A stretch of DNA of 64,000 nt from Straminergon stramineum (lineage: Eukaryota; Streptophyta; Bryopsida; Hypnales; Calliergonaceae), in the NCBI GenBank assembly GCA_963920665.1, contig OY987272.1, positions 3,043,001 through 3,107,000 on the forward strand, given 5' to 3'. This document shows, piece by piece, positions 930 through 49,809 of this stretch (position 1 is the first letter of the stretch; the number at the start of each line of letters is the position of its first letter). Below the pieces are notes generated by a model. That model saw only the letters and a program-made list of their open reading frames with translations, was not told where the DNA came from and made no database searches. The position numbers and the translations under genes are program-made.

Positions 930-3900
930 ATGGCGAAGAAGGATCCGCTGGATTACTTGTCGGAAGCGTGGCGGGTACTGCGCTTGTCCGTGCGGTGTCC
1001 GACGCGAGTGGCTACATGGGATGCGGTGGTGGTGACGGCCGCCAGTCCTGCGCAAGCGGAGCTTTATCAAAGGCATCTGGAGCAAGCGCAGGGGAATGGG
1101 ACGATCGCCGAACAGACGGTGGTCTTGGCGGTGCCGGACCCGGATGGGCGACGCATCGGATCCGGAGCTGCTACTGTGAATGCACTGCGAGCGCTTGCGC
1201 AGCATTTGCATGTAAGCGAAATCCTCACCATGTCCCTTACTCCATGATTTGAATACTAGTGTCACCAAATGATTTGGATACTGCATTTCGCCAGTACTTG
1301 AGTGTAGCATGGAAACAATGCTGAATCGTTTATTATGGAGTCCAATCTTAGTTCGATTATGGAGATTAGATTGTGGAGTCCAATTTTAAACCAGTAATCA
1401 ATATAGAAACGAGATCATACCCGAGGTCGAATCTAGATATGAACCAAGATAGAAGCGAGATGAGTATCAACCTAGAATCGAGATGATCAACATGTAATCG
1501 AGAGAAGCAAAGATGAATTGCAATTGTCGAAGGACACCCAAAGCATGTTGAAATCAGGATGTTGTTGAAGGAACGATTTTAGAATATCTACACCCAAAAA
1601 CTTCGACTCGTCGTAATTTTTGTTTACGGTTTCCAAAGGATACATTCTTTCGTGCATTGAAACCTCCTTACATTTGTCAACCAGAAAATATAAAATCTGA
1701 CCAGTCTCATAATAGAAACTGTGCGTACTAGAAGAAGTGATGGTTTTAGGTATTCCTACCTTAGAATGCTTCTGTCAACTGGGATATAGCAACTTGAAAT
1801 ATATATCTTTGGAGATGGATTTCAATGTCCATTTCAATATTGTTTCATGCTAGGGTTGTTTCAATATAGTATTAAGTTTGAAGGCAATATCAAACTGGAT
1901 TTCGATGTTGTTTCAATGTCTATTCGAGAAGCTTGTACTTCAGTGATGAGTATTCAAGTCAGATTCTATTTCGATTAGCGATGATGAAGTTCACTGATCA
2001 AACCATTTTTTTATTAGGACCGAGAGAGTAATGCATCTGGTCAAGGTTTGACTGCGATGACGCCGCGATTGGCTTGCGATCACAGGAAGCGGGTACTGCT
2101 GTTGCACACAGGTGGTGACTCGAAGCGAGTGCCATGGGCGAATCCTATTGGCAAAGCGTTTATTCCGTTACCGTTTTTGGCTGGGGATGATCCCGACGCG
2201 CACATCTTCACGCTATTTGATCACATTCTTGCCATCTCTGCTTCTGTACTCCAATCCTTTTCCAGCCAAGGTAAGAATTTTAGTGTAAAGGATTCTTTTT
2301 TCTTCCCACTGTATGCATATTAGCCAGTGTATATGAGTGTGGCTTCATTTGGAGATTAGTATAGAGCTCCGGAGAGAAAAAATTGGGTACAAGAGCTAAA
2401 CTTTTTTGATATGAATTTTTTTGTGAATTTCTTATGCAATCATCAAAGTGGGTGGTTGTCGACCTCTGTTGAAGGGATAGTAGACAGCCCCATTTCCACT
2501 CAAAGATCAGTGGTCATACACATTTAGCCAACTCATGCTTACACTCAACTTGCTAATTGAAAGCCAAACAAGTGTATGAATAGATGAGTTGCTGTTGGTA
2601 GCACGGATCAGGCAATTTGGAGACGGGTCAGGTTTTAGTATCCTCTACCTTAGTTCTGACTAAAAGTTATTCTGCCAAAAATCACATGCTGGGCATGTTT
2701 ATACCCTCCGTTTTTCACATAATCTCACTTGGGAGGACGTTCTATTTGGGGGGCAGGCGGATTGCTGATCATGACCGGCGACGTCCTCCCATGTTTTGAT
2801 GGTTCATCGATAGCGCTCCCTGAACATGGTGCTGTTGTAATCACAGTCCCCGCCTCGTTGGCTACAGCAGCAAAGCATGGTGTGATCTTGGGTTCTCAGG
2901 TTGGGACTGCTATTTGATTTTCTATTAGTCTCCTCTATTAGTTAGCTTGTATTGTCTGCTCAGTCTGCAGTAGAATTTTTCCGAGAAGCTCTATCTGATA
3001 ATTTTCCTCCTTTTTGTGGACAGGTACATGAAAAGGCAACGAGCGACCTACCTCTAGTGATGGACCTGCTTCAGAAGCCAAACGCGAAGCAGATGGTTGA
3101 GAGGGGGGCGGTTTTGGCAGATGGGAAAGCTTTTTTGGATACGGGTATTTTTGTTGTACGGGGAGCTGCATTTAGCGACTTGCTTGAATTTTCACTTTGG
3201 GATCCAAACCCAGTGGCAGACATTCTTGTAACAGGGGACGAAGTGGGTGGGCTCCCTGTCTTTGTTCCTTACTTGAAATCAGTCCACAGTGATTTTCGAA
3301 GGTTTCACCTGTAAATGTCATTTATGGGAAACCAATTAAGGATGATCTGGTATTAATAAATAATGCTTTATTTGTGATGCACTGCAGGTGAGTTTGTACG
3401 AAGAGATTGCAGGGGCGTGGGTACCAGCAAGGCATGGATGGCTTGCATCTCGGCCGCTTGGCAAGAAACTCATCGATGCATTGGGGTCTAGTCGATTGTA
3501 CCATCATTGTGCTGGTGTGACTCCAGCTCTTTAATTCCCACTCGCATTTTTACAATGTGATTTGCGTTCTGTTAGGAACATCTGCTTATGATACAGGTAT
3601 ATTAACTTCTGGGGAGATTGAACTGTGAGCTGCAGTTTTTAGGTGTTTGTTTCACTTGACATTCGGGTTGAGGAACTCTGTGCCAACGCTTCCATTAATT
3701 TTTCCTTATCTATCTTTGTACGTGTCATGGATCTAGAGGAGTTGGAGTTCCTTCATTTCGGTACATCCAGCGAAGTATTGGATCACCTGTCGGAGAATCA
3801 CAAGGGCCGCATCTTACGAAACCAGTTCAGTGCTATTTCTGGCTCAATGATGTGCGACGTGTCACCATCGGCGTGTGTTATAGGTTGTGACGTACACCCG

Positions 3901-6475
3901 AATGTCTCGGTGGGCGAGGGCAGCTTGGTCTTCAATTGCACGCTGGTGGAGGGTGTAAGAATTGGAAGTCGGTGCGTGGCGGTGGGTCTGATATCACAGT
4001 CTCCAAATTCAAAGTTTGCTCTTCTGGACCGCCATTGTTTGTGGCGGGTTCCTGTTTCAAGTCAAACGCTGTCAAGCGCTCAAGTTGTACTTTGCTGTGG
4101 CCTGGATGATGACCCAAAGGTCCCTTCTGCATCTCGAGGGACGTTTTGCGGTGGACACTGGAGTGAATTTCTCAGCGACCGAGGAATTGTGGAACGCGAT
4201 CTTTGGGGTCCCAATGTGGAAGCAAAGAATCTCTGGAATGCGAAGCTATTCCCAGTCGTGACAGCTCAGGATGTTGGTCTCGGTTTTGCCATGTGGTTAA
4301 TGGGCATCAACTTGGACGGAACCCCCTTTATACTTCCCGAATGGCGTTCCAGCCATCGCCTCAGCCTCGGCGATCTTCACAGTTGTATCAATTTTAACGA
4401 GCTGAATCGTGAAGTTGGTGAGCACATTGCGACTCTAGCAGGTGGTTTTCTGAAGGCGAGCATCGTTTGTGGATCCCTGAGTCGCAATATCGCGCAGTTG
4501 TGTCGCAACATTACGCTCGGAAGGACTAAAGAAAACCTTGCGATGACACTAGAAGATTCGATGTTGCTAGTTGCGGGATTGGCGAAGAAAGGGGCGAGGA
4601 ATGCAATTCTCATACCGTCAAGCAGGGTATACCAGGCATTGACTGACATATATGAAGCCTCTGGCGACGCCCACCCAGCCTCTGCTGCCTGGGTCTGGAA
4701 TGCTGTAGCCCAGGAGACTTCTGATGCCGTCTTTAAAATTCGCCTAGGTGAGCGACTTTTTATTTATTTATAGCAAGCTGAATTGCAGTAGCATGAGAAT
4801 CTATTGGTTTTGAATGTACATACTGACGAGGATCAACACGGCTCAACGTATTTCTACATACTACTACAATTCTCACTGATGAAATTGTAAATTGTAAATT
4901 GAGTATGCATGATTACTGCCGCTTTTATAGAAATGTGAGATAAAGCTCTCTGCACACTTGTAAATACTGCTGCAATTTCTGGGACATGATTTTATTGTCT
5001 ACTTGGCTACTTCCAGCAGAAGAAGAGGTGAATTGCAATTTGAGCTCAAAGGATTCAAGCTCTGCAGCAGTCATTCGCTCTAGGATTGAGCTGCCTGTGC
5101 GCGTTGACTTCGTTGGTGGATGGAGTGACACTCCACCCTGGAGTCTGGAAAGAATTGGCTGCGTGCTGAACATGGCTGTGCAACTGGACGGCCGCTCGCC
5201 ATTGTGCGCTGAAGTGACACTCCATCCTCGTGGCACGGGAGTTACGATTTCGGACGAGACTGCAAATACAATCACAATTGACGACAGAAGGACCATCCAA
5301 CCGCCTTTTGATTCCGAGGACAGGTTTCGTCTAGTGAAAGCTGCCTTGGTTGTCACAGGGTTCACTGGTAGCCAAAGCTCTACTGGAATGCTCGAGATTT
5401 CGACATGCTCGAATGTGCCTCGCGGGAGTGGATTGGGAGTGTCGAGTATCCTGGCAGCGGCAGTCGTGAAGGGGCTTCTCGAAGTGAAGCAGGACGACTC
5501 TGGTGCTGATAACGTCGCACGGCTTGTTTTGGTTCTGGAACAGATCATGGGTACTGGAGGCGGTTGGCAAGACCAAATTGGAGGGGTGTACCCTGGTATC
5601 AAGTACACCACGAGTAAACCTGGGCGACCCATGTCTCTCCAAGTGGAATCGGTGCCTGTGACTGATGCCTTGAGAGTAGAACTCCAGTCTCGAATGTTGG
5701 TCGTTTTTACAGGACAGGTAAGGAAACATCATTCAACATCTCTTTAATTTCTAGAACATTCATTACAGTCCTGGCTGCTAGTTTTGTGTTCGGGGTAACT
5801 CCGAAGGACCAATAATTCCAAATTGGTGTTTTGAGTGGGTCTTATCGGGACTTTTTATTGTTCAATCTTTCAACAATATATGCTTTGTTCTTCAGTGATT
5901 CTGGTGGTATAAAATGTGGTCCTGCCTGGATTATTGATTTTTCACAAAAAACCCTATCAAATTGATCATTATTTTAAACCATGAACTCTTGGCTAATATA
6001 TTTGTTACGAGATTTTTGCCTTGGAGGTGTAGTGACCCTTTGTGACGATGGGGTTTAATTTGCGCAGGTGAGATTGGCGCATACAGTACTACAAATAGTG
6101 GTACGGCGCTACTTACAACGTGACGCCCGCCTCATAGCGGCTATTAAGCGGCTGGTCGCTCTTGCCAAGCTGGGGGAAGCCGCGTTTGCGGCCAACGACT
6201 TGAACACCATAGGCAGCATCATGACGGAAGCCTGGCTGTTGCACCAAGAGCTCGACCCCAATTGCAGCAACCCTTTTGTGGATTCCCTGTTTCACAAAGT
6301 GAAACATCTCAGCTGCGGTCAGAAGCTCGTTGGAGCGGGCGGAGGAGGATTTGCCATCTTCATTGGCAAGAACAAGGAGGCGACTCAGGAGATGAAGGCC
6401 CTGCTGCAGAGCGTCGGTCCTCCCGTGGTAGTTTACAATTGGAACTTGCTTGAAAATACTGAATTGCTGGAGTGA
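930..6475 (+). CDS. FKGP: Bifunctional L-fucokinase / GDP-L-fucose pyrophosphorylase
   Basis: This enzyme salvages free L-fucose in the cytosol: the C-terminal kinase makes L-fucose-1-phosphate and the N-terminal pyrophosphorylase converts it with GTP to GDP-L-fucose. Eight exons fit with consistent phases: 930-1211, 2018-2270, 2757-2899, 3024-3242, 3388-3514, 3737-4747, 5017-5717, 6068-6475. They give 1047 residues, close to the ~1055 of Arabidopsis FKGP. The pyrophosphorylase half shows GSGAATVNAL (~77) and LHTGGDSKRVPWAN (~123), then hexapeptide-like turns at ~389-419 and FLHFGTSSEVLDHL. The GHMP-kinase half starts with LPVRVDFVGGWSDTPPW (~704), has the ATP-binding loop VPRGSGLGVSS (~812) and the third GHMP motif LVGAGGGGF (~1001). 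No stop or frameshift interrupts it. The exon 4 donor (GAA|GTGGGT) was chosen because it aligns best with the family; the exon 6 acceptor is similarly inferred. Confidence 0.96.
1212..2017 (+). other. FKGP intron 1 (806 bp)
   Basis: This is the longest intron of the gene, bounded by GTAAGC and TTATTAG. Around 1405-1510 it holds degenerate short repeats of an AATCGAGATGA-like unit. There is no sign of a nested gene. Confidence 0.85.
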
Positions 6476-11597: not shown

Positions 11598-11607
11598 GTA
11601 CATACAA
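11598..11607. repeat. Left target-site duplication of the large MULE
   Basis: GTACATACAA directly precedes the left terminal inverted repeat. The same ten bases directly follow the right end at 27972-27981. A perfect 9-11-bp duplication is characteristic of Mutator-like elements. Confidence 0.88.
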
Positions 11608-11677
11608 CAACGGTGCTAGTTTGTGAGCCTGCGAGCACGAGCCTACAAGTAGTGAGCAGGGACTATGTGAGCGTTGA
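11608..11677 (+). repeat. Left terminal inverted repeat of the MULE
   Basis: It begins CAACGGTGCTAG and continues with several spaced GTGAGC/GCGAGC/GTGAGCG words. It matches the inverted right end closely over the first ~21 bp (17 of 21) and then through the repeated GTGAGC pattern. A diverged copy of this left end and ~150 bp inward of it also lies inverted at 49598-49809. Confidence 0.8.
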
Positions 11678-12082
11678 GTTCTAACATTTAGAAAATTTTA
11701 AGAAAAAAGTCAATAAGATTTCTAAAAAGAAAAAGCATTATAAAAATTAGGATAAAATTTTCTATTTTTAGTAAATTATAGTGCCTATTACCGTAAAGAT
11801 ATTCCCGTGGACCTATTACCACGGACCTATTATTGTTGTTATGTACAATTTGTGTAAAATGTTTTATTTTCATAACATACTAAACATCAAAGGTATATAT
11901 TTTAATGGTAAATAACTGAACTATAATACAATACAAATTGAAATTGAAAAAAGATTGTATTGAATACTTTGGCAAATTACAATATTTGTCTAGATAGAAA
12001 ACAATACTCTTGAAGCTACATATCTAATTTCAATCTATAACCTTCCAATCTGAAATGTAAACACTCAAAGATTCTTAGTCAT

Positions 12083-15000
12083 CTAGGTATGATGAAGATT
12101 CTCATTTGAAAGCTTGATGATACTAGCCCTACTGAGAAGGAGCTTTACTTCATTGAAGCTGAAGCTTGGAGAATGTATAAACTTATCGTCTACTGGATTC
12201 ATTTTGCAAAAATAACAAAACAAGTAATAAAGGTGTTTGCAATTCACATATTGATGGCGGCCACCAATTGCTGAGACGGCCATGTCTACAAAATCTGGAC
12301 AAGTGCACTCCAAGTACATGCCAAGTGTAATTCGATAAACCTTTTCCGTAGGTTGAGTTCCAGATTGGAGAGAGATTATGGCTCCAAGCCCAGAGAAGGG
12401 CAATATAGTTACTCCCAAGATCAATCCTTTGACATTTCCAGCACTCTCCCATTTATTGCAATGTTCTATAGTAGGAGCATTTACAATACAGCGAATAGCT
12501 TTGCTCCTTCTTGTTGTTGGATACGTGTTCACATGCAAAGGACTAGGCTGATCGTAGAAGACCACTTCAAAAATGTTGGACATTCTGAATAATCCTCAAG
12601 GTGACATAGGTGGTCGCTTTTGGAGTTGGAAGCCAACATCTTGCAGTAGTAGGGTTTCTTGGCGACTCAATCTAGTGTTAGATAGAATAAGCCACACATC
12701 AGGTACTTGGAGCCAATCAATTACCCAAGGATGTTTAGAGCCTCGTACACATTGGTCAATATCATCTGGACAAAACCAAAAGTCAATCATGATCTCCTTG
12801 TTTCCTCCATATTGTTTTTTTCTACCATGATACGTCAGAGCTGGAGTGCCTTTAGATCCCTTTGCAATTTTGGCAATGCAACGAATGTTTGATCCCCTCT
12901 ATTGGGCATGACATTTGCAACTTGATTTTTGTGAAATCCTTGCAATATGCCATTGCGAAGTGTCACAATCACTCTCCATCGCAATTGTGACATGTAGTAT
13001 ATTCATAAAGGTAGACAAAGTTTTTGCTTCATTGGAGGCCACTATTGGTGTACATGTAGATCGTGTTTATACTCGTGGCTAAGAGAAGTTGACCTTGTCT
13101 GGACAATGAGAGTCACCATCTGAACCAATGGGAAGGTCAAGTTTGTGCTTACTACTACCAAACACCTCTTCACCTTCCAAATGTGGAATACGTGTTCCAA
13201 CACCAACTACTCCAGGAAGGCCATTCAAAGCCTCTGCAATCTTCTATGGATCGCCACTTTGTCTAGCGCCTTTTAACTTCAGCTCTTCTTTGGATGGCCC
13301 TGATCTTGATGTTGTGCCATTCAAGAATGCTCGGTAATTTGTCATTTGCATAAAGGCGCGAATGCAGTCATCACAAGTGGCGGCAAATAAGTCATCACCT
13401 CGATTGCCTGATTGCTGCATTTGTTATGCACTGTTTTTGATAAATTGCATGATGGCATGTCTACCATTTCGTCGAGACTCAACCCCTAAAAAGAGAAAAA
13501 GGGTTTTTTTTAGCCCAAAATACAATGACTGAAAAAAAAAAACATGCCACACCTTTCGCTAAGGTATACTACTATAATTTTTTGATCACTCCATTGTGAG
13601 GCAAAGGTTCCCCTCAGCCCCAAGGGGAAGTCAATCATTACCTTTGGTAATCAGAATTCTATCAAAAGTAGTGGTTTAGTTTGTAGGGAACAAAATTGGA
13701 ATGCAAGTAGTTCTATAGGAAAGACATTATGAAATGAAAATGGTTGTACAAGCAAGACATTATTAAAAAAATGACATCGAATAACGTACCATTTGCATGA
13801 ACCTGCCCCATTGGCGATATTGAAAGTGCCAAAATGCAAGCCACAACTCCAATTCACGCAAACTTCTTCTGAAGCTGCTCCAGATGATAGCCACCAAGAA
13901 CGAATCGCTGAGTACTGTGTCTCGACTTCCTCCATGGTCTTGGAATCTTTATATTGGGAGTACAAACGAGTATGTTGGTATTGCATATCCGATTTAATGA
14001 GCTTTTGGGTATGTTGATGCATCGAAGTACTCCAATGCAAGAGACATGTACGCTCCCGGTTAACAAGCTCCTCTTTGGTATTCCCCGTGCCGTATATAAT
14101 GCGAATAGCATTCCAATTTGCTTGTGCATTATCTGCCATGAAACCCTTGAAATAAGGACTCATCATGCCATTGCGTCTCACAACATCATTTGGTAAGCTC
14201 CACATGATGCATTGCACTTTTGTATCTTCAGATTGCATGTCACAAATGGCGATTGTCATGACCTTCCTGCATCTTGTGTCATATACATGGCATGCCATGG
14301 TTGTCCAATCTTTAACACGTTTTACGTGGTCAAACATAAGCTACGCGTTCTCTAAATCTCCTTCGGGTTGCATGTGCTTCACCAAGTCCACTCCACGACC
14401 AGGTCCTTCAACTAACATTTTAAACAAGTATACCTTCTCTTTTCCTTGTCCGGGAAAGACACTGTCTTGAATGTATTCAAACTTCAAATTCCGTTTCATA
14501 TTCATGATGCTATCTATGACCCCACCTTTACCAATGCTACGGAATGAAGTAATAATGTTGCAGATGTTAGGAGAACTTAGTATTTGGAACCTATCCATAA
14601 CATCGTCTAACAACTTTCCTTGCAACATCTCCTTAGGACCATCACCATTGTGAATAAGGTGGTTGTCTAGAAATTGCTTACTAGCTCCAAGAGCAATGGC
14701 TGAGTTAGTGGCAGTTGGAGTCTTGGCAACCTCGCTTGCAATGAGACCGGAAATAGTATCTAAAGACTCTCTACATGTTCCCGAAGCCACAGGATGCATG
14801 TGATTACCTAAATGAATGCATGCTCTCGTCATCAATGTAGTGTCACTGAAAACATAATATATTCTAGCATCACAAATAGTAACACAATGAGGTGGATATT
14901 TGCATATCTTGCAAATAATACTTGAATCCTTTGGAGGAGTTGAGCCAATATGGAATGGAGCAATAGTAGAACCAGACCACTCTGTCTCATTGCGTTTAGA

Positions 15001-15984
15001 GGACTGCTTCAAGTAATCACACTCGGAGTTGTTACATACCAAATGGCCTGCACAAGAGGACTTTCTGAACTTCTTGCCATCTTGGTTGTGGATATTGGAT
15101 GTCATGGTGTGACACCAAGCATGACCATCATATCGTTTATCCATGCCCTGTAGATTTCCACCAATGGATGATGAAGATGAAACACGAAGTGAAGGCAACT
15201 CAAATACTATGTCTCCATCAAAGTTTGCGGGGAGATATTATACTTTGTGATGAATCAGCGAATCATAGTCTAATGCAGCAACTTCATTCCTAGATCCACG
15301 AATTGATGCCAAATTCCTTAAGCACCCAACAATACTGGTTGTGTCTACACTATTTGGATAAGTTGGTGGGCGAGAGTGAGTCGACAGAGCAAGACTACTT
15401 GATGGCGTGTGGTATGTACTGGAAGTTGTCCTAAGCATATCTTCAAGGACTCTAACAGGAAGCGGTGCTTGGATACTTGGTTGGCTAGAGGACTCTCCTT
15501 CTGACTCACTAGATATATCTATAACAGGGTGAAGGACTTCTTGTTTCACACGAAGAAATTGAATTGTATTACTCGCCTTTGTCATGTGTTGACCCTCCAT
15601 AGAATTCCTAATATTATGTCGAGCAGGAGGCATATCTACAATGGAAGGATCTGATTGGCAAGGTAAAATCTCGGTGGAAGCTCCCATCATGAGAGACAAC
15701 AACCCATAAGCTCTATAGCGACCTAGACGAAGGTGCCAGGCATGACCATCCTCAAGTTCTAACTTCATCATGTGGACATACTCCTTCAAGCTTCCAGAAT
15801 CAGACATGACCTCTTCTTCAACATATATACTGGATTGGAGAAAATCAAATCGGACATGAAGAAGGTGTGAAGACACTACAACATATCCTTCTTCTACAAG
15901 AGGGAGAACAAGGGGAATCTCATGGCCATCCACTCGAATGGAGGCCATTGATAGCATACGAAAAAACAACGAGAATGAGAACAA
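12083..15984 (-). pseudogene. Degenerate Mutator-like transposase with SWIM zinc finger
   Basis: Reading from 15984 downward, one frame encodes a protein broken by TAA at 15238-15240 and TAG at 14341-14343. A frameshift follows near 13860-13870, after which LWLAFWHFQYRQWGRF reads in another frame up to a donor at 13790|13789. Later parts carry TAA 13424-13426, TAG 13244-13246, a probable frameshift near 12840 and TGA 12596-12598. A Cys-rich segment (CKICKYPPHC with HLGNHMHP) suggests a zinc-binding DNA-recognition region. ACHVYDTRCRKVMTIAICD and GFMADNAQANWNAIR are candidate sites of the first two catalytic Asp residues, and the third acid is not assigned. The C-terminal SWIM finger, CxC-x19-CxH, lies at 12233-12307. 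Family assignment rests on the SWIM finger, the order of these parts and the enclosing MULE ends. Confidence 0.8.
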
Positions 15985-17109
15985 TATCCAATGAAAACTT
16001 GTTAGAGATTAGAGACTAACTTACTATGTGTATGAGGTTCTATTGTATACATTATGTAAGCATGAGGTATACAATTAAATGGACATGATTAGGAAAAAAT
16101 GTAATTGTATTACTAGTTAATAAACAATAATATTGTCAGAGGTCTCCAATCTCATATATCTAGAATTGCCACTCAAATTGAAGGAGAATCTTTAAGGGGA
16201 AGTTGATTATCTTACTTAACTCAAAGAAAATTAATGCAAAATTCCAAGAACATGCTACATGTTTGTAGAGAGAGGACGGATTTAGATTGTGCTTAAATAA
16301 TGGGCAACAGAAGAGTAAAAACATCCATTCAATTCCTTTTGGTAGTCATGTACCTTGATTTTCCATTAAACATTCAAATAGTTTATAGACTTCTAATTAA
16401 TTCTCCATAGACTATCTCCGTATTTAAATGTGATTGGGTATAAATAGGCTTAGTTATGTAGATATAAGTCCCATAAATTGATATGACAATTTTACTAGTC
16501 TAGGAGCCTCCACTTTGAAAAATCATAGAAATTACTAATATACTATTTCTAGAATGTCTAGTAGTTTTAAGAAATTCAAAATTGTCTACGGCCAATACTA
16601 GAGAACTAATATTGTATAGGATAGGTACCTTGAACTATGCATAATTGCTTATGATGATGGCTTTTGGTGCTTACACTGTAACTAATTACCCAAGTTCAAA
16701 TTCAAAACCACTTTCCCACAATTCCAATTAAAGTATGGCCATCATGACATTTAATATGTTCCACAAATTTGTGGATGCCAATGAATTTGAAACTATTTGT
16801 CTACCTACATGTAGATAAGCTTTGGTACTAATTTTTAAATTAGACAAAACCCAAGGCTAATAGTATAGTTCGTTCCTAGGGAGGCTAGTTAAATAGGATT
16901 ACTTCTAAATGACTCTTATTAGGTCATTGCAATTGTAGAATATTATAGGAAATTTGTTCTTTAACCACATAAGCAAATGTTTTTCCTCACGCAATATGAC
17001 TAATTACTAGATTTGCCACTCCACTCTTAAAGGCCACAAGGGTTAAGAAGCTCCTAAATTATTGAGGATCTTTTAATTAATCTTTTTCTTTTTACTATCT
17101 TTAATCCTT
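15985..17109. other. Upstream region of the transposase, no gene seen
   Basis: AT-rich DNA upstream of the minus-strand transposase start. It presumably holds the transposase promoter, but no clear TATA box or coding frame was identified. Confidence 0.5.
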
Positions 17110-18555
17110 TTATCCCCACTTGGAATTCTTTATTCTTTATTTCTTTAATTTCCTTTATTCCAAATCACTTCCAGATCTCCAACTTGGCACATCAGACCAG
17201 ATACAGCAACTCCAAATTGGCTTTGAAACTTCATACAGGTTCTAAATTAGCCTTAACATCAGTACAATCAGGCACTTCCAACCTCCAACTTGGGCTAGAT
17301 TCTCATTTCTAAATCCTTGTCTACCAAATGGGAACCACAACCTCAAATCTCACCAACTTGGAAGATTACATGATACTCTCAACTGATTACTACAAATTGA
17401 TCATTCTTACAATTTGATTTACTCAAAACACACTTCCACAATTGATATGAATTTCTAAACTTATTCTCCACTTGGACACACACACACCATACTACAATGA
17501 CATACACATCCAATTTGGTTTATTTAATATAACACACATCAACACTTAACCCACTAGGAATGAAATAAACTTAAGATGCATCCAAGATTTCCAACTTGGC
17601 CTTACAACATCCATCAACATCATTCAACAAATTCATTCATAATATAATTTCTCAATTTAAATCATCACACATTCAACCTACTTCTATTACAGCACACCAA
17701 TTCGGCAAGAATATTTATTTTATTTAACACTGAATTGGTGATCAAATCACCAGTACACAATTAGCAATAAAGTTCAACATTTCCACTATTTGATTTTCCA
17801 CATAAAATATCTTCATATCAATTCCACTTCTCCAACCAGGCTACTAAAAATTCTACTTTAAACTGCTTGCCTTTACTTAATCTAAATCTTTAGCGCTCAG
17901 ACTTCCACAGATTTCATAATAATTCACATTCTTCCAAAAATCTCCCAACTTGGAAACTCCACTTAAATTCTTCATACTTCTGCACATTAACAACCACTCC
18001 GCCATACACTGGCACACACACATCCCGACTAGGACACAGACACACACTGATCCAAACTTGGATCAACACAAACATAACACCCAACTAGGCAATTACACAA
18101 GCACACACACAACAATCACAACACAAATTCCAAAAAAACAAATACACAGCCTGAGTGACTGGGACACGCACTGGAATTCACTCAACAATTGGTAAAAGGA
18201 AAAGAAAACCAACTTGGACTTAAGAGACAACTCCAAAACAGTTACCAACTCGGTAGAGTCAACCAACTGACAACAACCACCCATTTGAATCCCATTCGGC
18301 CCACATTCATCAGACTACCATCATCCAATTCGGTTGACATGCCCAACACTTAGTCACCAACCACCTAATTGGAACCTTAACTAGGACTTTAAACATACAA
18401 CCCTCCACTTAGACAACCAAACAACCCCATTTGGAATAAAACCAATGACTAAACCCCTATTTGGACAACACAAAACACCAAATAATACTAAAAACCTTCA
18501 CATTTTACTCAAAATATTTCAAAAATTACAACAGTGGTTACCCTATTCGGTTATC
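17110..18555. promoter_or_regulatory. Array of >20 CCAACTTGG-like palindromic motifs
   Basis: Across ~1.4 kb a short near-palindromic word, roughly CCWAHYTNGG, recurs every 30-100 bp. Good copies lie near 17179, 17283, 17352, 17590, 17944 and 18209 (CCAACTTGG); variants lie near 17467, 17510, 17695, 18051, 18081, 18245, 18292, 18324, 18364, 18425, 18457 and 18539. The tract is CA-rich on the plus strand. The spacing is irregular, so it is not a simple tandem repeat. Clustered short motifs in the non-coding part of a MULE are the type of site that a transposase or a MULE-encoded anti-silencing factor binds. That role is inferred. Confidence 0.5.
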
Positions 18556-18861
18556 TACACTACATGAGGTTGCCATAAATGGAATACTTAGTAGTGAAGA
18601 GTTGTACAGTATGTGGTGACATAATTCCAAAGATTGCCGTAGAAATTTGAAAATTTTAATCCCATTACTATAAACGTGAAATAATCCTTTAACATGAAAG
18701 CTGAAGTCATTGTCTACCCATTCTAGTGAACACCATAGGATTTGAACTTACGTGATGTATTGAGAATAGTGTGAAGTCCATACTGGAATATGCATTCCTG
18801 CCGTTGCTTAAATCTTGTTGTATTTCTTCAAATTCATTCCACATTATGATCTACTAGTCTC

Positions 18862-19236
18862 ATGCATGCTACAAAAGATAGAATCGATAGTGTTTCCCAA
18901 TGTTGTTTTAGAAAGAGGAAGAAGAGAGGGAAAATCTTGTTCTCATCGCGAAAGGAATTGCAACGATCACGGAGAAGAGGGAAGGTTGCTATAGAGGAAA
19001 ATTTGTCAGCTCCGACTTCAAATTTTCACTTTCATATAGAAGAGGAGAAACAAAATTTCCATGCAAATGAAGGAAGTGTACATGAGGTATCAAATATTAA
19101 GGTGGAGCAACTCAAGTTCTATTGTAGGAGAGCAATGTCAATCTCGGGCGTAAGTATATTCACTTTTGCACGGACACATATATATTCTTCATATGTTTTG
19201 AGTATTCCAACAACCTACAGATTAGAATTAAAATAA
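18862..19236 (+). CDS. Hypothetical basic ORF inside the MULE
   Basis: The frame from the ATG at 18862 is rich in Arg and Lys at its start (FRKRKKRGK, QRSRRRGK) and then acidic, with IEEEKQNFHANEG. A plausible splice donor (GGGC|GTAAGT) at about 19149 would end it early. I do not recognise the product. It could be a small accessory protein of the element, a captured host exon, or chance. Confidence 0.25.
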   Translation: MHATKDRIDSVSQCCFRKRKKRGKILFSSRKELQRSRRRGKVAIEENLSAPTSNFHFHIEEEKQNFHANEGSVHEVSNIKVEQLKFYCRRAMSISGVSIFTFARTHIYSSYVLSIPTTYRLELK

Positions 19237-19682
19237 CCTTGACGTGCACCAATGTCCAAAAAGAAAATGACAAATTGTTTGAAACTAAAGTATCTTTTGT
19301 ATATAACTTAGAGAGAAGTCATTCTACTTTCTAGATATAATGCATGATGTGTTTGTCCTCTTGAAATGTTAAATTTCATGTTACAAGTGTACATATTTTT
19401 TTTAAATTTCAAATCTGCAAGTTTGTCATGTAGTTGACCAAAACTAAATTGCAAAGACTAGAGCTCAAGACGAGATTAGCCACAATGGTGTTGTAGATTC
19501 TAAGAATCCAAAAATTTCAAAAAATCACCATGTGAAGAGAACCTCATTTCAAACACATTCTAACAAATTTTAAACAAAATTGATAATATTCAGAACAAAA
19601 ATATTGATGATAGCATAGGAAAATCTAATCATCAAGAAGGAATCTTAAACTCGCATTCTGTAATTGTTTTTGTATGTCAATT

Positions 19683-20747
19683 CTACAATTGAATTTTCAA
19701 ATTGTGATCCCATACCATTTGATATGCACCACTTTCAATACATGGATAACCGGCTATTGAGGGTAACCGATCGATCGACCTGTTGGAAAGGTAACCGATC
19801 GGGTGACCTACTGCAAAAGTAACCACTGCGGAGCTATTGGGAGCCGCTAGTTCGTCCCTAGAGACCATTGTCCTCCTCTTCCAACCATTTCATTCCTTCT
19901 CTGCAATCAAGTTTGCACTGTAATCAACTGATTGTAAGCAGTAATTCTCGTGATTCCCTTGGTAACAATCTAGGTGTAGACATGGTTTAGAAAATATTTA
20001 GCTTACGCATTACCTCAAGCTTGAATATGATGATTGCTAAATTAGGTTTCCGTAATCTTTTTGAAGGAAATGCGAGAAGTGGCAAGGAAGCTTGCAACCA
20101 GAAATGCATCAGCTAGAGGATTCCAAAGTGAGGGTGATGGCAATAATGGGGATGTCGGCCCAGAAATTATAGTTGGCATTGAAACCGCCAAGACTTCTAC
20201 TCCAGGTGCAGCCACTATAAGTCTCGGCCCCCTTTTTTCAATTTCATCCTTCATGCATAGTTTGTAGACTTCTTTCCGAGTAATCTGTTTCACTACTACA
20301 TCTTTCACCTTGGTTATCTCTTGCATCTCATAGCTAGTCGATGGAAGAGTTTGAGTTCGTGAAGGAAAAAATTAAATTCATTGCTTGAACGAGGTAAGAG
20401 AAATGTATGATAGACTCAGTTAGAACAGTTTAGATCTTTGGATCATACCCATTGTAGTTTATCTTCTTGTGAATCTAGAAACATATTTGATGGGAAATGA
20501 GTGGGCAAATTCTTGTGCTCATAGTCAGAGCTGGAAATCTGCAAACTACGAAATTAGGGTTAGAGAACGGAAGCTCAACATATTGGCACATAATTAAGTA
20601 GAAAATATTCCTCAGTACGAAACCATTTGCATTGTATGAATTCGAAAGGAATTCTGCAAATGAAATTTTACCTAGACAGCTCTTCCGATCATTCTCCAGA
20701 TAGGCAAGGAATCCCTCGGCCCTGAGGGCAAGATTCAGTTCTTCCAT
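19683..20747 (-). pseudogene. Possible third, small multi-exon gene of the MULE
   Basis: On the minus strand an ATG at 20747 opens MEELNLALRAEGFLAYLEND, followed by a donor (CTAG|GTAAAA). A further segment near 20450-20545, after a TTTGCAG acceptor, reads SSSDYEHKNLPTHF and ends before GTATGA. A third (20042-20326) contains EITKVKDVVVKQITRK and GPRLIVAAPGVEV. A fourth, after TGATTGCAG near 19910, reads GMKWLEEEDNGL and then meets a stop. The phases between these pieces do not all join, so this is either a broken gene or a chance alignment of exon-like stretches. No family is recognised. Confidence 0.25.
19755..19835. repeat. 28-bp tandem repeat, ~3 copies
   Basis: GTAACC recurs at 19763, 19791 and 19819. 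The first two copies share GGTAACCGATCG, and the third is degenerate. Confidence 0.7.
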
Positions 20748-22545
20748 TTCAGGTCATGGAAACCAGCAAGGCACAAAGAACATACAGAGCACTCTATCTC
20801 ATGATACTGATTTGAATAGATAAGAAAAACCCTATAGAAATTAAATACCCAAGATTCAAAGTTTACGGTTGGGGAAATTTCACAGAGGCTGACTATATCG
20901 ACCTTGCATAAATTCCAAACTCCAAAGTGATTAGGAGTGTCGAAGCAGCTTTCTCGATAGTCTCTGTTGATTTTGAGATGAGTTGATTAAGGTCTGTCGA
21001 TTTAGAAATTTGATAACAGGGTTTGCCGATTCAAAAATCTAATCAACAAGGTCTGCTAATTTAGAAATCTGATCAGCAAGGCCTGCCGATTAAAAAATCT
21101 GATCAGCCTGGTTTGTCGACTGAGAAGCCTTGGCCCTGATGGAACTGTCCTCCCTTGGATGTTGTGATCAATAAGTACTATCATTGGCTTTACCGAATTA
21201 GATACTAATTAGATGATGAAGTCCATTATGATAGAACTTGGACTTCTGCTTTTCTCTCTTAAATTTCCTTTTGGCTGAGACATAATCGTTAATCCATCAT
21301 TTGCAGGAAACATGTGATGTGGCACAAGATCGACTGATCTTGCAGTTGGATGCATAGTTGCGGAATTGCGGATGTGATCCATTTCTTTATTAGGATATTA
21401 TAGTTGCCACTTAGCTTCTTTTCTTGCTATGATTTGTTTTGGACTGGCTTCAGGAGAAGTTTCTGGATTAACTTATTGATCCGTATTGCTAGCCTTGGGG
21501 CCAATGATAGTCAATTGGTGGTTATTCATTGATCTCACTTTTCCACACCCGAGACATAGAAGTTCGGGCCCGAAGTAGTTTTGGTTGGGCTTCTGGGTTG
21601 GCTTGTCTTCTAAGGATAAACATATCGGCAATTTATGAGCCACCGTCGAGTTTGAATCTATTAGTTTATTAGCATATTAGTATGTATCCACAAATCAAAT
21701 CCTTACCTGGGAGGTTAGTTTGTTGGTCAAAAATTATTTTATTAAAAAAATTATGCTTGCTATTTTTCCAATTTGGATTCGGTTGATTCTTTATCAATCA
21801 AATTGATGTGCATTATAGGAAGGCTCGGTCCCGATGGACACATTCTCCACTTTCAGTCTTAATCAGAATATTGAACTATGTGAGCTAAGTATTATGATCC
21901 ATATGTTATTTGAATAATTATTAAGGAACTATCCTGAAGTTGGTTCTCATATTAGCTCTTGGGTTTTTATAGACTAAATTTAAAGAAGGTGTTGTTATTA
22001 TTTACTGATAATTAAGGATAAATAAAAAAATTATAATATGGTTTAGATTAACTAGCCTAGTAATTTCATGACATGACATAAGAGTGATAGTGATTCTAGT
22101 ATTTAAATTAGTTAGATAGTGGGAAGCCTCAGCGCCGAGGCCTAGTCTTGTCATTGAGTTCTTGATCTCTCTAAATCAATTGGACCAACATTAAATATCA
22201 TCAAATTCATTGATTTCTCGAAACACTTTTTTTTTAAATCAATTTGTTCATCCTCGTAGTCATCCTTCGGCATCGAGGGATAGTTTTTCTAGAGATTTTT
22301 TGATCTTATCAGATATATCTTACTTGTTTAGGGTTAAGATAAATTCACTGATTTCATGTTTCACTGGTTGCTTTGATCAATTGGTTTACCCTATTTGGCA
22401 TCCCCTGGCATCGAGGGGATAAATAGTTTCCTATGAATTGATGTTTTTAGGGTTTTGGTCATATCGACTTCTTGAATTGTATATTTACCTAGATTAGAAT
22501 TATCCTTTGGCATGGGTGGCCTTGGTGCTGAGGGCACTATGTTTG
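20708..22545. promoter_or_regulatory. Dispersed GGCAYCGAGG-like GC-rich motif series upstream of the methylase-like gene
   Basis: A GC-rich word stands out from AT-rich surroundings. Examples are CTCGGCCCTGAGGGC (20711), CTTGGCCCTGATGG (21126), CTCGGTCCCGATGG (21824), CTCAGCGCCGAGG (22128), TTCGGCATCGAGGG (22266), CTGGCATCGAGGGG (22403) and CTTGGTGCTGAGGGC (22520). The last few are spaced at ~115-145 bp and sit in a weak longer repeat beginning AAATTCAYTGATTTC. The motif is nearly palindromic. The series ends just before the first exon at 22754, so a promoter-binding role is possible. Confidence 0.35.
20989..21128. repeat. 30-bp tandem repeat, ~4.7 copies
   Basis: The unit reads approximately AAGGYCTGCCGATTTAGAAA followed by TCTGATCAGC. 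Copies are 70-90% alike and lie head to tail inside the MULE. Confidence 0.8.
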
Positions 22546-22753
22546 TTGGGCACTAGCGAGAGTATAATGGAGAAATGTTTGGTTTTTTATTGGTTCGATT
22601 TAAGGATTTTTAAAGATCTCGTGGTCCCTATTAATTGGGCTTCCTTCTTTCAGAGTTGTTTTTCAACTCCTATTCTTTGTGTTCATTTATCTGATTGCAT
22701 CCATTTGTCAATACTACATGATTCCTTCTAATGATTTGGTGTTTTTGCAGGAG

Positions 22754-25700
22754 ATGGGTTCTGATTCTAATCCTTTGTAAACTCTAGGTTTGCTGGATCA
22801 AAATATTAATGAAGATGAAGACGAGGCTGTGGAGAAGACGAGCATGGAATTCACCACCGAGGATGCCCTCCAGAGAGCCCAGAAAGTTAATTTTGTGGCT
22901 TCCATTGCTAACTTGAGATTGAAACCTCATTCAATTTCACGTTTGCGGATACCACTGTGTCTCCTTGCTGTGATGCCTATGGTGCGTCCAACATTAGTAT
23001 GTGATCTTACCAGATTGGAGCAGGAGTTTGTGCACAGATACAGAGATGGGTCATGTGTGTTTTATGTGTCACTAACTAACGAGCAAGGAGAGACAGAGCA
23101 AGTGTCTGACGTTGATAAATGTGCTTGGGGCCCAATGTGGAATGCTGAGAATGACCTCTTCAATGCCAAACTCAATGCAACACCAAGCTTGGAGCGTTTT
23201 CAAGACTCAAAATTTTTTATATGCGATGGTAACCATAGGCTGCTTGCATAGTCTTTATATATATCCAAACATCATGGCCATGACTGAGATTGGCACGTTT
23301 CGGTGGATTCAATCATTCTTGAGACGAAGGGTAGAATTGGTGATGTGATGCATGCCATGCACGACATCAACAAGTAAGTGCCTTACCTCATGTAGTTTAC
23401 ATTTTGGTTTGGTATGTATCTTAATTTGTGTTTCATATAACATCTACATTTTTCCTTGCAGACATACAGAGAATTCATTTATCAAAACCAATCTCATACA
23501 CACGCTCTATCGTGTTAAAAAATATGGAGTTCTTCCACTAGACAAGTTCTACAAGCATTTGAGTACCTCTGAGATGACACAATGCCAACAGAGCCATCGA
23601 AAGAGTTGGTATTCTATGTCACTCGAAGTATTTATTTCGTTCATTTTTCGGGTAACATTTCTCACTAAACTAATCATGTCATTCTTATATTCTTTGGGTT
23701 TATGTTACAATAGTGCTCATAGCTATATTCTTGTGTAGTACGAGATTGCAGCAGCAGTTGATATTGCAATTCGACTATATAAAGAAGAAACACCAGGGGA
23801 AGAGTAGTTAGAGGAAGGCATCTTAGCTGCCATGAGATTGGATACAAGAGAGAAGACATCCAAGTTAATCCAGAAGTTGGGGAAGTTAACAGCCGTGGCT
23901 AATTCCAACCTTGGGAGTGAATGGCTTCGAGAGTTAAAATGAAATTGCATATGTCCTCTTATCTTATGTTCTTTTCTTGTCATGCCATCTTTCTGAGTCT
24001 AAATTCCATGTGATACAGATTGAGCGCCATTGGAGCTCAAATATCACCTTCGAAATGACTCTCGAGAAGTTGCAGTTGATTGCAACTTGCAATGTCAGTA
24101 GTGAGCAAAAGGTGAAGTGGTTGTGATGATGGAATTCTTCAATTCAAACAAGAGAGGCTAGAAAATTCCCATTGAAGCCAGTTGGAGAGAATGAATTAAA
24201 ATCATTCTTGGCAAAGGCCTGCTGGTATGCAGGGGTAAGTGCTTCTCAATGCCTTACAATTGTGTTATTTAGCAGATAACATTATCATTTGGATTCCAAA
24301 GATATCTATATGTGACAATTTTTCTTTTTCTATTCTGCAGATTAAAGAGGTGGGAAATGAAATGTTTGAAAACATTGTCAAGAAGAACGAGCTATCGTTG
24401 TCCATGGATTCTCCCCAAGAACCAGAGAGTTTTCCAGATTATGTGGAGGGATGGCGAATCCGAGTTTGGGACCATGCATTCTTAATGCATTTTGGGGGGC
24501 ATGATGTCTTTAGGAAGTCAGATGACTTCAAGAAGCACAAGGGCAGTGATCTAGTTGTAAAATGTGTGATTTACAGGTATGTATTCTACTTTCATGTTTT
24601 CATTGTTTTATGGTTAAGTGAATTATTGATTTCTTGGTTGCCTGCAATTTTTCTTAATAACATTCTTTATTTCTACAGGTATTTCAGGTACAAGCTGTTG
24701 CCAAAGGGAGCAATCGCGAAGCGTGATCTTCCTCCTTTTCTAGGAACATGGTTGGATGTCTCCTCTAAGCATTGCATGTTCTCAACATCTCACTTGAGGT
24801 GGTGGACCAGTTTGCATCTCAAATCAGGTGCATGGTATTTGGATTACCCACCGGAGTTCACATCGTTACCAAAGGAGCACCTCAAGCGCTCTATCAATTC
24901 TCATGAGGTTGTGGAAGAAATTGACGAGTTTGCTGGTCTTGATGAGGATGCAAAAGCAAAAGCGATGAAGAAGAGGGATGAAGCTGACAAGAAGAAAGCA
25001 TTGAAAAACTCGGAGGCTGTAGACAAGGCTAAGGAGAGAATCACAAAAAAGGCTATGAAACTAGTTGATATTGAAGAGGCTTTAGCAGCTAAGAAGACTA
25101 GGGGCAAAATTATGAAGCAAAAAATTCCACCTTCATCTACTAGAGATGAAGGATCCCAACACGTGCAATCTTTCTTACGAGGCATCAAACATGATGGTGA
25201 TTATGTTTCACTCAACGATGATGGGATGGTGCATGGTCCATCAGCTATGGAGTTTTTGAATGACTCACACATTTCTATCGATGAGTTCATTCTTAATCAT
25301 TCTCTTGTACATGTTTTGGCTGATCCTCTACCCCAAGTATACCACGACATCATCAAATTTATTGATGAGGTTAGCAACTTCACTTGCCTTGATAAATTTG
25401 CCATGATTTTATTTTTTGACTTTATTTCTTTGTTTTACTAACTATCATAATTCTATTGCAGCACAAAGGGGTGAAGCAACGCTTCTTCAAAGGAGTTACA
25501 AGTGAGAAACCACGCATTGATCTTATTATTGCCAATGTTCCAGAGGGTTTGCCTATCCCTGATTTGTCAATACCTACGACCAACATGCCTAAGTGGAACA
25601 TGGACAACCCTCTAGGGCTAGAGGCAGTTTTTGAGTTCGATGATGGTCATTTGCATGATGATGGAGCTCTTATCATTATTTATCCTTTGAAGGCTGTTAC

Positions 25701-27048
25701 AAAAGCCACCATTCGCACATATGCAACTACATATTATTTTGAGAAGATGAAGGATTGGTGGGAAATGAATTGGTTACATTTGGCCTCACCTATTTCTCCT
25801 TCCAGAACGGTATATTCATTTGTCCTTTTGGTTTAGAATGTAGTTAGTTTTTTATATACAATTTTTTGTTGAATATTTCACTTTTAATTCTAAGCAAGGT
25901 GTTGTATGTTTATATTGGTTTTCAATTGTATGATGTGAGATCTTTCTATTTGTTTTATGTTTCAAATAATCTAAGAGTATCCAATTATGCTTACATTATA
26001 GACTAACTATCTTCATATCTCTTCATTTTTGTAGACTCAGCGCTTCGGTATTTCATTGTTTGTGAGGAACTTGCCTGGCATTGGTCCTTCAAAGTTTCAA
26101 TTTCAACCATGCCCAAGCTTGAAGAAATTGGGGGTGGATGTTGTCCTAGACGACGTCCTTCAGAATTTCACCAAATTGGAGACTTTGACCATGGACCACA
26201 ATTCCAAGCCTTGGAGAGGGGCACGAGAAAAGGATCCACGATTCTTGCAGATGTTGATAGAAGCATCATCACTTCCAAATGACGTTGTTCTAGACTGTAC
26301 TGCAGGAACTGGTAAATTCAATTGCCTTCCCCATCTATTTTGGTAATCTTCATTTACATTTCCTCCTCCAACTCTCCTACCATTTTTCTAACAATTGATG
26401 TTGTGGTGATCTTGTTATTAGGGGCCTCCATCCATGCATGCAGGATTGTGAGTAGATATGTAGTTGCACTTGAAGAAAACAAGGCCATTTTTGAGGTAGT
26501 TCTAGCTCCAATGATTTGTTCTCTTCTGGATGTTCCAATACCACTCGTGACAGTCATTTTGCAGTCTGACGATGAAGATGCAGTGGAAGTTGAAGTTCCC
26601 CATATTATTAAGAAATCTCGTTTCAATAAGTAAGTCTATCTTTGTTTAGAATTTTTTTCAATTTGTAAGTGTACATCTAAAACATTGTTTAAATTTTGTT
26701 TACATTTACATCGCTTATTTGTTTCATCAGGAATTTAATATTTAAATCATTTCTAATCCTTTGTTATGTATTTGCAGCATGATTTCTAATGGGGTAGTTC
26801 ATCGACCTTTTTTCACTTTACCTCAGTTTTTCCCAAGCCCAAAGAAGTCCTATGTATTGCCATCATATGTAGAGGCTTTGGCTTCAACATTTGCATCTAC
26901 TCAAAATTTTCCTATGCATGAAAAGTTGAGTTCTTTAGATCCTTTGGTTATGCAGTTTGTAGATGTGACAGCCTTAGAATCAGACATAGAGTCATCATCA
27001 ACTACTAGCAGTGGCCACTCTCAATCTATGTCTACATTTTCTATATAA
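22754..27048 (+). pseudogene. ParB-like / beta-class DNA methyltransferase-like gene carried by the MULE
   Basis: Ten exons can be traced: 22754-23373, 23462-23651, 23739-~23935, 24019-24234, 24341-24576, 24688-25369 (or from 24679), 25462-25809, 26035-26311, 26422-26629, 26778-27048. The end of exon 3 is uncertain. Exon 1 contains FFICDGNHRLLA, like the DGxHR loop of ParB/sulfiredoxin-fold proteins. Exon 6 has a Lys/Glu-rich, probably helical insert. Exon 7 holds RIDLIIANVPEGLP, at the place of motif IV (normally D/N/S-PP-Y/W). Exons 8-9 give PNDVVLDCTAGTGASIHACR (SAM-binding motif I) and YVVALEENKAIF (motif II). Motif IV before motif I is beta-class order. In-frame stops: TAA 22778, TAG 23249, TGA 23285, TAG 23805, TGA 24124 and 24127. 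Exons 5-10 have none. NVPE departs from the catalytic consensus, so activity is doubtful. Confidence 0.7.
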
Positions 27049-27898
27049 GTCTATTTTTAGTTACACTGCATCTGTTGGATTTTATTTTATCGGCCATTAT
27101 ATATTGTTTTGGTACTTCAATAAGTAGTATTCTATGTATCTAAAGTTGTTATATTTAAAGCTTCCTTTGTTTTCAAAAATTTAAGGGATTATAAATGATA
27201 TTTAATTCACAATAACATGGTGTTGCTAAATGTGAAGTTCACTTATCATTTATCCTTGCTAGGAGGAATTAATGACCAATGATTCAAAGGCTCATTGATT
27301 ATCACTTTATTTCCTACCATTAGACTACTACAAATGAGTAAAATAATTTTGTTTATGATTTGGAAATGATGTCATATGTCAACAACAAGTAGTGATATTT
27401 TTGCACGCCTCAGAATTCAAAATTATTATGTATTCTAAACAAAGAAAATAAAGATAATTCGCCCTGCATATAATTCTATTGTCAAATGTCATAGGATGCA
27501 ACCAAGTCTACTTCTCTTTGGCAGCATTTCAATTTCAAATTTTTTTAGGCCACATGAATTGGAGTCAAAATTGTATTTCTAAAGCTATATTTCATTAGAT
27601 GCTAAATAAAATTAAAAGGCATCATTTTAATGGACGAAATTATCATCAATAAATAGTAAAAAATGGCCGAAATGCACTACAATAGTGATTTATGGATTAA
27701 GTATCTTTTTTTTATGAATATCCTCAACTATAACAAGAGAATTTGCAATAAATTTCACTATAAATGAACTAAATTACCATGAAGATAAAAAAAATTTAAT
27801 GACCATTTGTTTTCTTCATCCTGCACTATAAGGTGAAGTCTTTATCTTGAAGTCCACGATCATAGGTACCTCATCAATTTTTAATACAAGAAAATCTA
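27049..27898. other. MULE DNA between the methylase-like gene and the right terminus
   Basis: AT-rich, with no coding frame. It should contain the 3' UTR of the methylase-like gene, but no canonical AATAAA signal stands out close to the stop. Confidence 0.5.
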
Positions 27899-27971
27899 CG
27901 CTCGCAACTCACACTCTTATGCTCATAAGCTCACAGGCTCACGCTCACAAGCTCACAAAATAGCAACCCTG
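27899..27971 (-). repeat. Right terminal inverted repeat of the MULE
   Basis: It consists of reiterated GCTCAC/GCTCAT words and ends AAAATAGCAACCCTG, the inverse of CAGGGTTGCTATTTT. It matches the left end at 11608 in inverted orientation. Confidence 0.8.
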
Positions 27972-48712: not shown

Positions 48713-49597
48713 AAGTTAAAGATGATGAAAAAATCTTAAAGAATATGCTATAGGTCACACAAAATTTTCATTGGAAGAAAAATCTTTGTAAGGCAAAAGT
48801 AAGTAGACACAAATTTTTCCAATATGAATTTTTATGATCTTTTGAAATTTCAAACTTGACTTATTAAAAAATGCAAGTGAAACCATCCATAGGTAAGACT
48901 TATGAGTATAGATTCCAAAGGAATTTTTCATCATACTATTTGACTTGTAGCTCACAATATTCCTAAACTTTTGAGAATAACTATGAAATCAATAATCAAT
49001 GTAAACAATCAATTTCATGTGATAATATACAAATTACTCAACCAACTCTAAACAAATATATTACTATCCTTTGAAAATTGAGAGTGAAAGGGCTTCTATC
49101 CAAAAACACTTTTTGTGGACTAAAATGGGACTTTGCATTTGTAAGTAGCTTCTAGAGTGACTTCATAATCATTAATTTATTTGTAGCATTTTTATTGTAC
49201 TTCATATTCATCTTCTTCTTCAAGTCAAACTTTGTCTTTTGAGATTTTAATAACTTTAAAAAGGTTATAGAAACAAACTTGAGTGGTCTATGCAACAAAA
49301 ATGAAACTTGGTATAGCTAAGTTTTTTCCACACATATAATGAAATCTTATCAACAATTTTTTTTTCTAAAAACTAAATAAATCCGATAACAATATATCAA
49401 CAAAAAATTATCAGTGCCTTCCCATTGACCCCAAGAAGGTCAATGCTATTATAGGACAATGATCAACTAATATTCTAAACAAACTTATTTCCATCTCCAT
49501 TCATCTTTCACATCAATTGGATTCTTCATCAATCTTCATAGTGTATACTTCTAGACAAGATTGAAATTTGAATTTTCATTGGAATTCTACATATCCA
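48713..49597. other. Spacer, no gene seen
   Basis: AT-rich DNA without supported coding, TIR or tandem structure. Confidence 0.5.
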
Positions 49598-49809
49598 CAA
49601 TAATAGGTAAATGGTAATAGGTCCATGGTAGTAGGTACTAAAATTTACTAAAAATAATAAATTTTGATCCAAATTTTAAGATGGATTCTATTTTTTAAAA
49701 TATTATTCAGTTTTCTAATGCTTTTTCAAATTTTTGAGCTCAATGCTCACATAATCCCTGCTCAACACTCATAGGCTCATGCTTGTACACTTATAAAATA
49801 GCACCACTG
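49598..49809 (-). mobile_element. Isolated terminus of a second MULE of the same family
   Basis: The inverse of this segment starts CAGTGGTGCTATTTTATAAG and continues through GTGAGC-type words. It then matches 11680-11840 of the large element, including TTTACTAAAAATAATAAATT-like and GGTCCATGGTAATAGG-like blocks. No matching opposite end or duplication of the flanking GATTGCCTAC was found in the window. Confidence 0.7.

Follow-up and report, generated by a model that had tools for sequence, protein, structure and literature searches.

The question raised by the stretch of DNA analysed here (64,000 nucleotides of the Straminergon stramineum genome, contig OY987272.1, C10:3043001-3107000 of the 326-Mb genome; hereafter the window) is why a plant transposon should encode, next to its transposase, a second protein that resembles ParB-DNA-methyltransferases. 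The transposon is a two-gene Mutator-like element (MULE) that occupies positions 11608-27971, is flanked by a perfect 10-bp target duplication and is dead in the window copy (hereafter element A). Counted genome-wide, the transposase gene and the second gene recur together, transcribed outward from a shared core, and almost certainly constitute a co-inherited integral module. The best overall explanation of the second protein, which we judge to have about an even chance of being correct, is that a ParB/methyltransferase-like protein has become a factor comparable to VANC of the plant element VANDAL21/Hiun.

The genome was searched with the element ends and with both proteins, the check proposed in a preliminary description of this DNA, and the best 62 of 1297 and 132 of 937 transposase matches as well as 150 of 722 matches of second-gene exons were scored; because only part of the candidates was scored, an unpaired locus does not prove that the partner is absent. 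The distance limits of 12 kb and 20 kb are our choice. Among the transposase loci with at least 75% identity, the window's included, 28 of 29 have a divergently oriented second-gene exon 7.3-10.6 kb away, and the remaining one (C8:23.03 Mb) has no second-gene exon listed within 20 kb. More distant transposase loci are paired in 51 of 103 cases (the remainder of the 132 listed) and, in the other list, in 30 of 62. A search from the opposite side gives 90 of the 150 listed second-gene exon matches with a divergent transposase, compared with a mean of 0.75 and a maximum of 5 in 300 random placements (the lengths of contigs C6-C9 and C11 being approximate in this null); for another two, the transposase within 20 kb is not in divergent orientation. 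Among the matches listed, 29 of the 36 second-gene places nearest to the window's are paired. The identities to the two proteins of the window rank alike (rho 0.85, 27 pairs).

Several individual elements could be delimited. Element B (C4:9.83 Mb, 15.6 kb, duplication ATTTTGCATG) carries both genes in the same divergent layout, and so does element C (C5:7.81 Mb, 11.8 kb, duplication TTTCTCAACC), in which the second protein is only 28-38% identical. Elements D and E (C4:7.89 Mb and C3:17.44 Mb) are internally deleted and retain pieces of both genes detectable by tblastn, and the deleted element F retains a piece of the transposase along with DNA that is 73% identical to the stretch of C containing the first part of the second gene. 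Perfect 10-bp duplications, all different, flank five of the seven end pairings besides that of the window (B-F; 10 or 11 bp in F), which agrees with the 8-11 bp of the Mutator/MULE superfamily. The two end pairings tested at C2:13.11 Mb have no duplication, and a 29-kb pairing on C4 contains neither gene by tblastn. Given that the pair recurs in the divergent layout genome-wide, element C included, a one-off capture is rejected, and the earlier suggestion of an integral module is borne out. The pair is also old, persisting at the level of divergence seen in element C.

The delimitation of element A is equally clear. Within the window, the 10-mer GTACATACAA is confined to positions 11598 and 27972, abutting both ends, and the first 42 bases of the two ends are identical at 31 positions without gaps, compared with 23 for the best place outside the ends of this family and a mean of 10. 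Gapped alignment of 600 bases per end scores 122, against a mean of 85 and a maximum of 120 for 300 shuffles; since this score barely exceeds the best shuffle, the inverted repeat is taken to be short, about 60-80 bp of GAGC repeats. The GAGC count in the 80 nucleotides of each end is 5 and 6, compared with 0.18 expected. The end pattern is present at 150 places in the genome, the first 100 of which were listed and used, and at none for the reversed control. The element with flush duplication and terminal repeats, its minus-strand transposase relic and its outward-transcribed plus-strand second gene are all located where the preliminary description had placed them.

The transposase relic aligns over most of its length with a transposase of about 1150 amino acids from a relative, in two main pieces (41% and 44% identity), and a SWIM-like CxC...CKH motif was seen by eye near 12225-12310. 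A Pfam profile search with the transposase detects no MULE or SWIM match, giving only a weak hit to Transposase_mut (E 0.034-0.038). The sequence family has 134 matches in the protein database, and the predicted fold of a family member is nearest to the ISCth4 transposase, which we take to belong to the IS256 family, the bacterial kin of MULEs. By this structural model, the protein is an RNase-H-like DDE transposase related to IS256 and MULE transposases. Relatives also occur in other data sets. A Joint Genome Institute (JGI) metagenome protein (P0001) is 89% identical to a transposase of the host genome, which suggests that the metagenome includes sequence from a relative of the host. In the genome-contig scan, a 4.1-kb contig from a Synechococcales cyanobacterial bin (L002, CADCWO010000080.1) was found to encode a transposase relative with introns and, because of these introns, is probably plant contamination. 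Scans of viral contigs yielded no relative.

The second gene of element A contains six stops, none of them beyond exon 4, and a single inferred frameshift. Its landmarks are a DGNHRL motif near 23230, the sequence NVPE at the motif-IV position near 25530, and motif I, DCTAGTG, which spans the 26311/26422 splice. The DGNHRL motif is present in elements A, B and C and is followed by xAW in B and C, with a stop at the place of the tryptophan in A. The Pfam profile N6_N4_Mtase (PF01555) matches exons 7-9 with E=1.8e-6 (28.5 bits, cut-off 26.7), so that this part has the profile match and motif I of beta-class methyltransferases; on the whole conceptual protein, the same profile scores 25.8 bits, slightly below the cut-off. 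Alignments with phage methylases are weak (best listed E 6e-4). The methylase of phage 9184 (E 0.03) aligns over the motif-IV position, its DPPYG standing opposite NVPEG of the window. A database search with the full-length spliced protein retrieves no homolog, probably because introns break the protein up in the database, and a query with a single exon retrieves one relative (P0121, 64% identity over 78%).

The motif-IV position was read in 23 copies of the second gene, namely 8 close ones (A and B included), element C, and 14 of 14 further ones. None of the 23 has DPPY or an aromatic residue at the fourth place, and all depart from the catalytic pattern [DNS]PP[YFW]. The common forms are DVPE, DMPE, DCPE and DCQE, that is, mostly D-x-[P/Q]-E, with single copies such as DVPK, DVLE and DCHK; the first residue is aspartate in 21 of 23 copies, with EYPD in element C and NVPE in the window. 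In this class of enzymes, the aromatic residue at the fourth place holds the flipped base. The absence of DPPY from every copy makes base methylation by the second protein doubtful, and an altered catalytic site is very probably a property of the family as a whole. Nevertheless, the ratio of nonsynonymous to synonymous substitution rates (dN/dS), pooled over 28 pairs of the 8 close copies, is 0.42 for exons 6-8 of the second gene, and that of the transposase pieces of A and B is 0.55, which points to probable constraint on both genes during the active life of the elements. Judging from these sequences, the second protein has been retained for a function, though probably not for canonical base methylation. 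Divergence of the compared second-gene exon seems to outpace that of the transposase (e.g., about 58% identity of the partner at about 79% identity of the transposase).

The core between the divergent genes had been described as a 6.8-kb non-coding region; the core is there, but it includes a nested 1750-bp insertion that is missing from element B. This insertion has TG..CA ends and a 5-bp duplication, CTACA, and is likely to be a solo long terminal repeat (LTR). It is strongly asymmetric between strands (GC skew about -0.34) and contains 22 CC-N5-GG sites, mostly CCAAYTNGG-like, where 2.2 are expected. The CCAAYTNGG array was considered as a VANC-type array of the core and was dropped because it lies within this insertion.

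Two palindromes, CTCGGCGCCGAG and GCCGTTAACGGC, are subfamily-specific, and each of the six cores (A-F) carries one or the other. Sites resembling CCTCGGCGCCGAGG with at most three mismatches number 4, 7, 5 and 4 in cores A, B, D and E, respectively (shuffle means at most 0.02), and sites resembling GCCGTTAACGGC with at most two mismatches number 6 and 3 in C and F. The cores of neither subfamily hold the palindrome of the other, and 60 shuffles per core never gave more than one site. The palindromes were chosen after the repeats had been inspected, and a scan of all perfect palindromes served as the check on this choice: among perfect 12-bp palindromes, they are the top-ranking ones in B, C and E and come second to an A/T run in D, whereas cores A and F contain no perfect copy of their subfamily's palindrome. 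Genome-wide, CTCGGCGCCGAG occurs at 73 sites, whereas its reversed control occurs at 5. Of the 50 sites listed, 37 have a listed element feature within 12 kb (1.05 on average and at most 5 in the null). In the remainder of the window, beyond the element, there are no sites of the first kind and two of the second. Tandem repeats are present in all six cores and differ in unit and copy number; in D and E, arrays of 187-189 bp in 5.5-7.5 copies bear the palindrome.

The explanation that we favour joins these observations. The second protein would keep a methyltransferase scaffold of the S-adenosylmethionine (SAM)-dependent type while having lost the canonical base-methylating site, and would work as a sequence-specific DNA-binding factor that recognises the core palindromes of its own subfamily. 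Such recognition would keep the core open or active, through anti-silencing or promoter control, and the specificity of the palindromes would ensure that only close kin are served, a logic like that of VANC built on a different protein. The palindromes suggest self-recognition in that they are subfamily-specific and resemble the arrays of VANC targets. That the second protein binds them is, on the sequence data, as open to acceptance as to doubt; anti-silencing or expression control, rather than assistance in transposition, is a tentative suggestion from analogy that falls slightly short of an even chance. It is possible, though somewhat doubtful, that a ParB-DNA-methyltransferase has turned into a non-catalytic, fast-diversifying self-recognition factor that co-evolves with the palindromic arrays of each subfamily's core. 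Of the roles put forward earlier, counter-silencing or self-recognition thus stands by analogy only, with the palindromes and copy-variable repeats behind it, and self-marking by methylation is weakened.

Several observations weigh against this explanation. The ParB profile does not match the second protein, the assignment being based on the DGNHRL motif, and in a single-sequence structure model (predicted local distance difference test score, pLDDT, of 33) the ParB fold is not recoverable. Thirteen of the 50 listed CTCGGCGCCGAG sites have no listed element feature within 12 kb, and A and B each have one further palindrome site in the transposase gene region, outside the core. The multiplicity of the palindrome in C, D, E and part of B stems largely from tandem repeats, so the sites need not be individually selected. 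Among the second-gene exon places listed, 60 of 150 (7 of the 36 most similar) have no listed divergent transposase. Finally, in the window copy, the palindrome sites and both genes are decayed.

Some of these points lead to a different account, in which tandem repeats generate the palindromes incidentally, or the transposase or a host factor uses these sites, and the second protein has another role. The many sites located within arrays found by Tandem Repeats Finder (TRF) and the 13 sites away from known element features are compatible with it; several sites in A and B, however, lie outside arrays, the palindromes differ between the two subfamilies but are alike in length and position, and they lead the scan of perfect palindromes in the manner described above. 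We consider this account unlikely but well worth keeping in mind. Slightly less likely is a MURB-like transposition cofactor that helps the transposase in assembly or integration and is unrelated to silencing. Second genes with a role in integration or of unknown role are known in MULEs (PMC6446971), ParB domains can be nicking nucleases (PMC5512222), and the near-strict pairing with the transposase in the close clade would suit such a cofactor, but most palindromes lie in the core upstream of the second gene rather than at the ends, they differ by subfamily, the ends bear a different motif, GAGC, and divergence in the compared exons seems to be faster in the second protein than in the transposase. 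Self-marking of the element by an active N6-adenine or N4-cytosine methyltransferase, the role suggested for the Sola1 protein of Ectocarpus, would agree with the PF01555 match, the order of motif IV before an intact motif I, the aspartate that opens motif IV in nearly all copies, and dN/dS below 1; with neither DPPY nor a fourth-place aromatic residue in any copy, we regard it as improbable. A Pack-MULE, in which this single element would have captured a host gene, was the alternative named in the preliminary description, and the host-like structure of about ten exons and the room left for a host paralogue among the 60 unpaired places might favour it. It is contradicted by the recurrence of the divergent pair in element C and at 28 of the 29 close loci, whereas the cargo of a Pack-MULE would be absent from most copies of the family, and is extremely improbable.

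The features of element A are collected in Table 1. Elsewhere in the window, positions 49583-49809 on the minus strand contain another end of the same transposon family (73% identity over 240 bp), with no partner end or duplication within 15 kb, and exons matching the host genes for fucose pyrophosphorylase and GHMP kinase are located upstream of the element, at 3643-5747, a gene content that points to a land plant.

Table 1. Coordinates of the element A features within the window
Feature	Positions	Strand	Basis
Left target-site duplication, GTACATACAA	11598..11607	.	sequence match
Transposase-side terminal inverted repeat, starting CAACGGTGCTA, GAGC repeats	11608..11687	+	transposase-side end of element B has this form
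Relic of a Mutator-like transposase gene in two exons, with stops and frameshifts	12083..16008	-	alignment to relative
Intergenic core of the divergent pair; tandem repeats of 28 bp (x2.2) and 30 bp (x3.9), palindromes	16009..22753	.	repeat scan
Nested 1750-bp insertion, TGTAGATAA...TTATCTACA, not part of the element	16810..18559	.	absent from element B
Palindrome-like site CCTCGGCCCTGAGG (relative of CCTCGGCGCCGAGG)	20714..20727	.	
Palindrome-like site CCTCAGCGCCGAGG	22127..22140	.	
Palindrome-like site CTTCGGCATCGAGG	22265..22278	.	
Palindrome-like site CCTTGGTGCTGAGG	22520..22533	.	
ParB/DNA-methyltransferase-like gene, about 10 exons, decayed	22754..27048	+	mostly GT-AG borders
Methyltransferase-side terminal inverted repeat, starting CAGGGTTGCTA, GAGC repeats	27892..27971	-	methyltransferase-side end of element B has this form
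Right target-site duplication, GTACATACAA	27972..27981	.	sequence match

The closest published system is the Ectocarpus transposon Sola1-1_Ec32, which has a ParB-methyltransferase accessory gene (PMC12477816); similar proteins in green and red algal transposons are cited in the same paper (Iyer 2011; Petroll 2025). In the open literature, most of it judged by title or the start of the abstract and with subscription papers outside the search, the Ectocarpus paper is the only one that describes this architecture. Both second proteins are about 1100 amino acids long, combine ParB-like and N4C/N6A-type methyltransferase domains, and are encoded in a DNA transposon on the strand opposite to the transposase. 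Unlike Sola1-1_Ec32, the transposase here is Mutator-like, the likeness between the two systems being judged by description, and the moss family is set apart by the altered motif IV in 23 of 23 copies, the subfamily-specific palindromes and the genome-wide count of pairing. A ParB-methyltransferase second gene was therefore already known in Sola1; the other superfamily, the land-plant host, the remodelled site, the palindromes and the counted pairing are new. Accessory genes of this kind, so far noted in algal transposons, recur in a large land-plant Mutator-like lineage, and in every copy read from that lineage the catalytic motif is remodelled.

Other comparisons are more distant. Bce_0392 represents the bacterial and phage ParB-methylases, in which a ParB-type domain is fused to an adenine-methylase fold (PMC5512222), and the plant protein shares this combination, its ParB part by motif alone; a long middle region and introns distinguish the plant gene from these methylases, and it lacks the DPPY that is present in the methylase of phage 9184 (the ParB domain of the latter is not established). 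Charophyte and dinoflagellate retrotransposons carry C5 DNA methyltransferases (PMC5890265) and so likewise encode a DNA-methyltransferase-type protein; there, the enzymes are of the C5 type, whereas here an N6/N4-type fold is found in a DNA transposon.

For the proposed role, the relevant system is VANDAL21/Hiun with VANC21, likewise a plant Mutator-like element with a non-transposase protein. VANC targets are short motifs of non-coding DNA that are specific to each subfamily and lie in tandem repeats differing from one related copy to another (PMC5735166, PMC10398659), and the palindromes described here are similarly subfamily-specific motifs in the copy-variable tandem repeats of a non-coding core. 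The VANC motif is YAGTATTAY, unlike the palindromes of the moss elements, so that the parallel is one of logic, not of homology. The subfamily-specific palindromes make the role of such proteins directly testable by binding assays and methylomes. If the proposed explanation is correct, the problem solved by VANC would have been solved a second time, independently, in the moss module, and transposons would be seen to evolve kin-specific anti-silencing repeatedly.

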